56,068 nt of DNA from Deltaproteobacteria bacterium (lineage in GTDB: Bacteria; Bdellovibrionota; JACOXK01): contig JACPKQ010000021.1 of assembly GCA_016186995.1 (NCBI GenBank), positions 1-56,068 of the forward strand. The letters run 5' to 3'. Each line of letters starts with the position of its first letter. The stretch's first letter is position 1. The notes under the pieces were generated by a model. That model did no database searches. It was not told the DNA's origin and saw only the letters and a list, made by a program, of their open reading frames with translations. The position numbers were made by a program, and so were the translations under genes. This document shows, piece by piece, positions 55,009-56,068 of this stretch.

Positions 55009-55074
55009 AAGTAGAGAATATCATATATCCAAAGAACAAAAAAGAACCTTGGTTCTGAGTAGGGAAACCCTCCT

Positions 55075-55102
55075 GTCATTCCCGGCAAGAGCGGGAATCC
55101 AG
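55075..55102. repeat. Palindromic repeat upstream of the Na/Pi cotransporter
   Basis: gtcattcccgg caag agcgggaatccag; imperfect arms ATTCCCG / CGGGAAT. Directly to the left of the structured block. Confidence 0.7.
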
Positions 55103-55114
55103 GGTTTATTCGAA

Positions 55115-55470
55115 CTTAAGTTCTTGATGGTCACCTCATATAAAGTTCCCTAGTATATTTTTCAGGCACAGCGGTTGTTTTTCCCTGCGAGAAAAACACC
55201 GCACGCCTCTCGGCCTCGCTCTTTTTTACTGTATAGGAAAGGCTAACTTAACTACAGGAGTAACTTTTTTATGAATCATTTTTGTGAAACTAAAAAATGA
55301 TTCATAAAAGCCTAGGGCCCGCTTAAGCCTCCGAGACGGCCTTCAAAACATACTAGGTAACTTTATGTTGCATTCGAGTCTATGTAAAGATGACCTGAAG
55401 AGTTTTTCAGGGAGGATCCACACCGGGCGGAGGGGCACTGAAAAACTCTTTAGGTCATCAAGAACCTAAG
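55115..55470. ncRNA. Candidate large structured RNA or palindromic element, family unknown
   Basis: ORF-less block with nested complementarity. Outer arms CTTAAGTTCTTGATG (55115-55129) and CATCAAGAACCTAAG (55456-55470), 14/15. Next TAAAGTTCCCTAGTAT (55141-55156) with ATACTAGGTAACTTTA (55350-55365), 15/16. Hairpin GCGGT-GTTTTT/AAAAACACCGC (55171-55202). GCCTCTCGG (55205-55213) with CCGAGACGGC (55331-55340), continued by AGGCT/AGCCT (55240-55244, 55326-55330). A perfect 17-bp hairpin (55267-55283 with 55293-55309). A 22-bp hairpin with one G-U pair (55389-55410 with 55438-55459) and a GC-rich 27-base loop. The strand is undetermined. I see no hallmark of tmRNA, RNase P, SRP or 6S RNA. The last helix and outer arms share four bases, so they may be alternatives. 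Confidence 0.5.
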
Positions 55471-55520
55471 TATCGGAAACAAAACACCCCCTCTACTCTC
55501 TCATGAATACGCTGATCAAT

Positions 55521-56068
55521 TTAATTTAAAATCTCTGAAACATAGATTTGAGGATCGAATTGAGAAAAGTCGTTGAGAGTCTCACCTGTGCCAATAAAGT
55601 AAACAGGAAGGTGATATTGATCGACAATGGGTAAAAGAATACCCCCTTTGGCACTCCCATCAAGTTTAGTCATAATAATACCCGAAATAGGCACCACTTT
55701 TCCAAATTCCTCAACCTGTTTAAGAGCATTCTGACCCATAGTTGCATCCAAAACTAAAAGCATTCTCACCTCACAAAAATGACTTGCTTTGTATGCAGCA
55801 TTTTTTTCGGCGCGATTTAAGCCGTGAATGTTCACGCCCACGGTGAGGCCAAGGAAGTGGTAGAGACCGCCCATCCATTCGGCGTCACGATTTGCGAGGT
55901 AGTCGTTTACTGTGACCACGTGTACGCCTTTGCCTTCAAGCGCATTTAAGTAGACCGGAAGGGTGCAGACCAGAGTTTTCCCTTCCCCGGTTTTCATTTC
56001 CGCGATTTTTCCTTCGTGCAGGGCGATTCCCCCAATGAGCTGCACGTCGAAGGGCACCATGTCCCAGG
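55521..56068 (-). CDS. Chimeric open frame: SecA N-terminal part joined to FtsY C-terminal part (partial, runs off right edge)
   Basis: On the minus strand, from the edge to about 55790, the protein is Sec[21 protein letters not shown], Walker [38 protein letters not shown]. SecA would next continue with a DITYGTNNE-type motif. Instead, from about residue 97 on, it becomes the C-terminal GTPase part of Fts[42 protein letters not shown]. The SecA part is clearly richer in G+C than the FtsY part. A natural SecA-FtsY fusion is not known to me; a contig misjoin is the likely cause. Read as two partial genes: secA (about 55790-56068) and ftsY 3' end (55521 to about 55789). Confidence 0.8.

Follow-up and report, generated by a model that had tools for sequence, protein, structure and literature searches.

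The block of inverted repeats at positions 55,115 to 55,470 of the window (the whole stretch of 56,068 nucleotides that was analysed, which is one entire contig, C17, of a deltaproteobacterial genome of 1.68 Mb in 30 contigs, 93% complete) is probably a set of selfish palindromic elements, nested in one another and without genes of their own, in which a core spreads and the arms are written from the host flanks. We favour this interpretation because of the copy numbers of two repeat families, here called A and C, their covariation, in-frame insertions in either orientation, the exchange of A and C at orthologous sites, and net gains of in-gene insertions that are the size of the core. A preliminary description of the block had proposed either a palindromic mobile element or a new large structured RNA. 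The former comes close; the latter is unsupported, the parts occurring separately and the copies lying in both orientations.

The helices named at that stage were recovered computationally. No open reading frame of at least 60 aa overlaps positions 55,009 to 55,520, in agreement with the view that the block is non-coding. The perfect 17-bp hairpin (55,267-55,283 with 55,293-55,309), the 22-bp hairpin (55,389-55,410 with 55,438-55,459; 95%) and the 16-bp long-range helix (55,114-55,129 with 55,456-55,471; 94%, arms 326 nt apart) are all present, and the second long-range helix appears in the computed fold at about 55,139-55,157 with 55,349-55,367. When both strands of the region 55,100-55,490 were folded, the energies were -136.9 kcal/mol on the forward strand and -148.8 kcal/mol on the reverse strand, compared to means of -92.6 and -96.7 kcal/mol in shuffled controls (z of -8.9 and -9.4), and none of 100 shuffles folded as well. 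A covariance-model search of the block against Rfam (15) returned zero matches at the gathering threshold, in accord with the earlier failure to recognise a known RNA family; neither family A nor family C was found in Rfam, and a search of seven related loci that admitted E values as high as 1 yielded a single weak, unrelated match and nothing else. The repeat block is thus real, but the limits first assigned to it, 55,115-55,470, are too narrow, the sequence that is repeated in the genome spanning approximately 55,037 to 55,509. Directly to the left of the block as first delimited, at 55,073-55,105, lies a short repeat, TGTCATTCCCGGCAAGAGCGGGAATCC, that by eye resembles the dRS3/CGTC-type REPs.

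The block reads as an element of family C interrupted by one of family A that is itself interrupted by an insert, B; this order is read off the sequences. The features, with their strands, are as follows.

55,037-55,509, no strand assigned: full span of the sequence that recurs in the genome (from a blastn comparison of the intergenic region with other genomic loci).
55,114-55,129, forward strand: left outer arm of C, severed from its hairpin by A; pairs with 55,456-55,471.
55,139-55,368, forward strand: family A element, structured core and outer arms (about 55,139-55,157 and 55,349-55,367); match to model R1 at 55,148-55,361, 106.6 bits.
55,171-55,202, forward strand: hairpin P2 of A, with compensatory stem changes.
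55,231-55,316, forward strand: B, inserted in the fourth stem (P4) of A; copies of A that lack B join 55,230 to 55,317 across 15-16 bp.
55,389-55,459, forward strand: family C hairpin with 22-bp arms; match to model R2 at 55,392-55,456, 72.3 bits.
55,456-55,471, forward strand: right outer arm of C; pairs with 55,114-55,129.

The long-range helix between the two outer arms of C arises because A separates the left arm from the C hairpin; in another copy (L041), the C stem extends outward unbroken into the outer arm (TTCTTGATGG...TCATCAAGAA). What had been described as one closed multi-branch structure accordingly resolves into two dispersed elements, one within the arm of the other, and a hairpin inserted in the first. 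The loop bases of P2 (about 55,187-55,189) form a covarying contact with a motif near the 3' end of A (about 55,316-55,318). The fourth stem of A is a short hairpin in most of the compared copies and carries B in the window and at four other loci (L009-L012); elsewhere in the genome, the closest copies of the window's A element are 94-95% identical to it. Insert B is 86 bp long and houses the perfect 17-bp hairpin, with a conserved tip, TTTTTGTGAAACTAAAAAA; the same hairpin occurs at four further loci in other sequence surroundings and in the sister genus (G001), where the stem is changed and the pairing kept. The apex of C, GGGAGGATCYACACYGGGCGGAGGGG, at 55,410-55,435, is near-invariant and is met across distant bacteria.

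The possibility that a poor contig edge produced the block as an artefact of assembly or amplification merits next to no weight, although the edge was rightly suspected. A single reverse-strand ORF at 55,521-56,060 joins a SecA domain (first 92 residues) to an SRP54-type, FtsY-like GTPase (last 80 or so residues; both by Pfam), and because of this fusion the right end of the contig is probably an assembly chimera; moreover, contigs C1, C3, C13, C18 and C24 of the source genome start or end within copies of A, B or C, so that these repeats evidently break the assembly. However, similar copies sit deep inside other contigs of the genome, the best matches of parts of the block reaching 94-95% identity over 220-280 bases, so we consider the block itself to be sound. 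The same cores and orthologous-site insertions are found in metagenome-assembled genomes (MAGs) that, by their record titles, come from separate sampling projects, and copies lie deep inside contigs and in frame in conserved genes; for families A and C, an artefact is already excluded.

Family A (model R1) was detected in all eight genomes of the source genome's class, with 5 to 26 copies each and the maximum of 26 in the source genome, and family C (model R2) in six of the eight, with 17 copies in the source genome, compared to 0 of 70 other genomes sampled from the phylum. Across 84,980 species, the exact pattern of the C apex had 93 matching stretches; those listed come from Omnitrophota, from bacteria of the UBP18 and CSMAG records, and from 'Deltaproteobacteria' records, genomes of the source class among them. 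Family A is present as well in 11 of the 23 C-bearing genomes outside the class, and both families recur in Omnitrophota MAGs, where the core or apex is conserved and the stems vary by locus or lineage. The arms on either side of the core or apex are almost perfectly complementary, and in many genomes each locus has its own. Their outer ends vary from one locus to the next in related genomes, yet are common to copies within the source genome, where the A copies have one arm sequence; likewise, C copies in UBP18/CSMAG-type genomes have almost constant arms. A viral or plasmid origin was considered and rejected, since neither the C apex nor one A motif had an exact match in viral contigs, and the block had none among plasmids. 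The part of the literature that was covered offered nothing relevant on repeats of this kind from Omnitrophota or from candidate phyla.

The pairing in both families is real, and it covaries very strongly among homologues. In an alignment of 52 C loci, 18 of 21 pairs were doubly changed, with a covariation of 0.657 compared to 0.194 in shuffled and at most 0.246 in slid controls; the stem sequence is arbitrary but paired, and the apex is near-invariant, these loci having been chosen by their apex. For A, an alignment of 52 loci that was fitted to the model, and is hence biased towards it, showed double changes in 45 of 46 pairs (covariation 0.801; 0.187 shuffled, at most 0.184 slid), and an unfitted alignment of 17 sequences showed them in 34 of 46. 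The loop contact, which links one position of the P2 loop to one position of the AUG(C/G)CC motif, is G-C in 38 copies and C-G in five, with no exceptions among the copies readable at both positions; because the five come from three genomes, the C-G state represents fewer than five events, and both states occur within one genome. Among 2282 cells of A consensus pairs, 2134 are Watson-Crick, 29 GU and 47 AC. The scarcity of wobble pairs in A was considered as a clean sign of pairing at the DNA level, but was weakened by comparison of the strands, the share of GU being 2.1% in folds of one strand, 6.0% in folds of its complement and 7.0% in folds of the tRNAs of the same loci. Mismatches in C arms favour GU over AC by 35 to 12 and those in A arms AC over GU by 26 to 11, biases that hint at a folded single strand, either RNA or DNA, and are merely suggestive because related copies are not independent.

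The window's own copy of A is intergenic; in relatives from the class, A is inserted in frame in long ORFs, including those for PurL (three genomes), an LpxB-LpxK fusion (five), PabB (two), a penicillin-binding protein, COX15, a kinase and a glycosyltransferase, in either orientation even at orthologous sites. These genes were named from their translations, with solved relatives in the case of PurL, PabB, COX15 and the glycosyltransferase; genes of the window were named by Pfam. In this class, lpxB and lpxK form a single open frame of approximately 770-830 aa (L192, L183, L203, L273, L342). In about ten genes, A lies just before the hydrophobic core of a signal peptide (L180, L188, L199, L251, L270, L276, L278, L281, L284, L285). 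The purL genes of two genomes (G005 and G006) hold an in-frame remnant consisting of the A core and the right arm only, and the element is intact in G007, of the same genus. Sites are also shared between the families: one orthologous intergenic site has C in G006 and G007 and A in G005, another has C in G004 and A in G006, and the interval between purS and purQ carries C in G005 as well as in G004, genomes of two different genera; these are individual observed cases. Other palindromes occur at such sites too. In the purL of G003 (L321), two tandem hairpins with perfect arms of 22-23 bp and a common loop, CGGCATTGCAATTCGAG, lie in frame at the site occupied by A in other genomes and apparently represent another element family; in the pabB of G007 (L331), a different palindrome with 22-bp arms and a 37-nt centre occupies the linker that holds A in G002 and G005.

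Insertions that can be compared with empty homologues provide a measure of how the arms originate. Near residue 187 of LpxB, the gap between anchors is 39 aa in four empty genomes and 74 aa in G004, a gain of 105 nt for an insertion with a 104-nt core and 30-bp arms with zero mismatches. Relative to the empty PurL of G004, the gains are 105 nt (core 100) and 90 nt (core 92), and the solved Thermus PurL has a similar 22-residue linker; relative to the LpxB-LpxK linker, which is 132 aa long in both empty genera, they are 108 (core 110), 114 (core 116), 135 (core 98) and 147 nt (core 110). Of the seven in-gene alleles for which the empty baseline is firm, five show a net gain equal to the core alone to within 5 nt, the two arms of these alleles summing to 38-70 nt, that is, 19-35 bp each; in the other two, the gain exceeds the core by 37 nt. 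In pabB, with a single empty homologue as the baseline, the gain is 87 nt compared to a core of 104 nt. In every in-gene allele measured, the gain is less than the core and two arms. Insertion into pre-existing palindromes was rejected, the empty LpxB-LpxK linkers having no palindrome longer than 10-11 bp. Because the gain is the core only and the empty linkers lack longer palindromes, one arm or both took the place of a stretch of host DNA of similar length in these five alleles, and the arms of 19-35 bp were probably written over host sequence.

Under the explanation that we favour, the spreading part would be the core, moved by a putative enzyme acting in trans. The hairpin of an inserted core may induce a template switch by DNA polymerase, so that each flank in turn could serve as the pattern for an inverted copy in place of its partner, whereby host sequence would be overwritten into long arms that later mutate in concert; insertions would last where the protein or intergenic region tolerates them, and decay via in-frame deletion. 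Several observations speak against this explanation: the common A arms in the source genome, which indicate that the unit can also carry its arms along, the two alleles with the additional 37 nt, and the 87 against 104 nt of pabB. Neither a transposase nor a nick site nor a target duplication could be assigned to A or C in searches that covered Y1 transposases, reverse transcriptases and, unsystematically, target duplications; the in-gene evidence comes from relatives and not from the window's own copy; and the mismatch biases of the arms hint at a folded single strand. A broader proposal, which we put forward tentatively and with some doubt, is that there exists a new class of mobile elements in which the structured core alone moves and host flanking DNA becomes the arms, the termini of each element thus being made out of its target, with several unrelated cores sharing this habit and these sites, and with cores crossing phyla.

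It is unlikely, in our estimate, that A and C are ordinary non-autonomous mobile palindromes, MITE-like or RPE-like, in which a transposase moves the whole hairpin with its arms and the arms diverge under selection for pairing. The uniform arms of A in the source genome and the nearly constant ones of C in UBP18/CSMAG-type genomes are what such elements would show, but the gains short of core and two arms and the variation of arm ends between loci of related genomes are not, and neither a Y1 transposase nor a reverse transcriptase is common to the class, so both were rejected as partners. The Y1 (RAYT) transposase is missing from the source genome, at 93% completeness, and occurs in four of the eight class genomes though A occurs in all eight. 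Still less probable, and indeed very unlikely, is that selection keeps A and C as functional structured RNAs, either ribozyme-like or involved in mRNA processing, with the long stems as a scaffold. The very strong covariation, the covarying loop contact, the near-invariant apex, and the position of C between purS and purQ in two genera would all fit such RNAs. However, both families lie in either orientation relative to genes, A occupies in-frame positions inside genes and has decayed in purL of sister species, and its wobble pairs are few by count, though strand-dependent in the folds. Copies in both orientations, intergenic and in genes, fit neither one RNA gene nor a fixed mRNA element; a single large new RNA was rejected given the separate occurrence of its component parts, and so were terminators or UTR elements given the varying orientation and position and the A copies inside genes.

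Among known systems, the closest kind is the Rickettsia palindromic elements (RPE), which are 100-150 bp or more in length, form several families per genome, and in many cases lie in frame in unrelated genes (PMC10969869). Family A similarly lies in frame in unrelated genes of relatives (PurL, LpxB-LpxK, PabB, COX15, kinase, signal peptides); the likeness is one of habit. A and C differ from RPEs in that they occur in other bacteria, their conserved centres are common to distant lineages, their arms are matched at each locus mostly without added length, and the families swap at the same sites. RPEs have been reported to lose arm identity over time, and in the mitochondria of Nematomorpha long perfect inverted repeats occur in genes, with template switching proposed as the cause (PMC6649704); no conserved core has been described for the latter, whereas in A and C a common structured core separates the arms. 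The REP/BIME and GTAG/CGTC repeats, with or without an associated RAYT, are dispersed intergenic hairpins, some in genes, and REPs measure 20-40 bp (PMC3733652). A and C, in contrast, span about 70-230 bp and have long stems of arbitrary sequence, a conserved centre and outer ends that vary between loci of related genomes, and they lack the 20-40 bp hairpin with a GTAG (or CGTC) end tag; their membership in the REP/RAYT group is not supported. MITEs are short, non-coding, palindromic mobile units with conserved terminal repeats recognised by a transposase. A and C resemble them in being short, non-coding, palindromic and mobile, and differ in that the centre is conserved and the outer ends vary, although within the source genome the ends are common to the copies.

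To our knowledge, palindromic insertions in genes are known mainly from Rickettsia; families A and C show an RPE-like habit in other bacteria, with conserved cores common to distant lineages, and their in-gene alleles beside empty homologues make the origin of the arms measurable. Strong covariation is the usual proof of a structured RNA, and these families give warning that it may also arise in elements with arms matched at the DNA level.

The repertoire of the source genome includes further repeat families beyond A, B and C. More palindromic repeats, of the type CACCCTGAGTG...GAAGGGT...CTCAGAATGACA, flank copies of A and C (L012, L015, L024).
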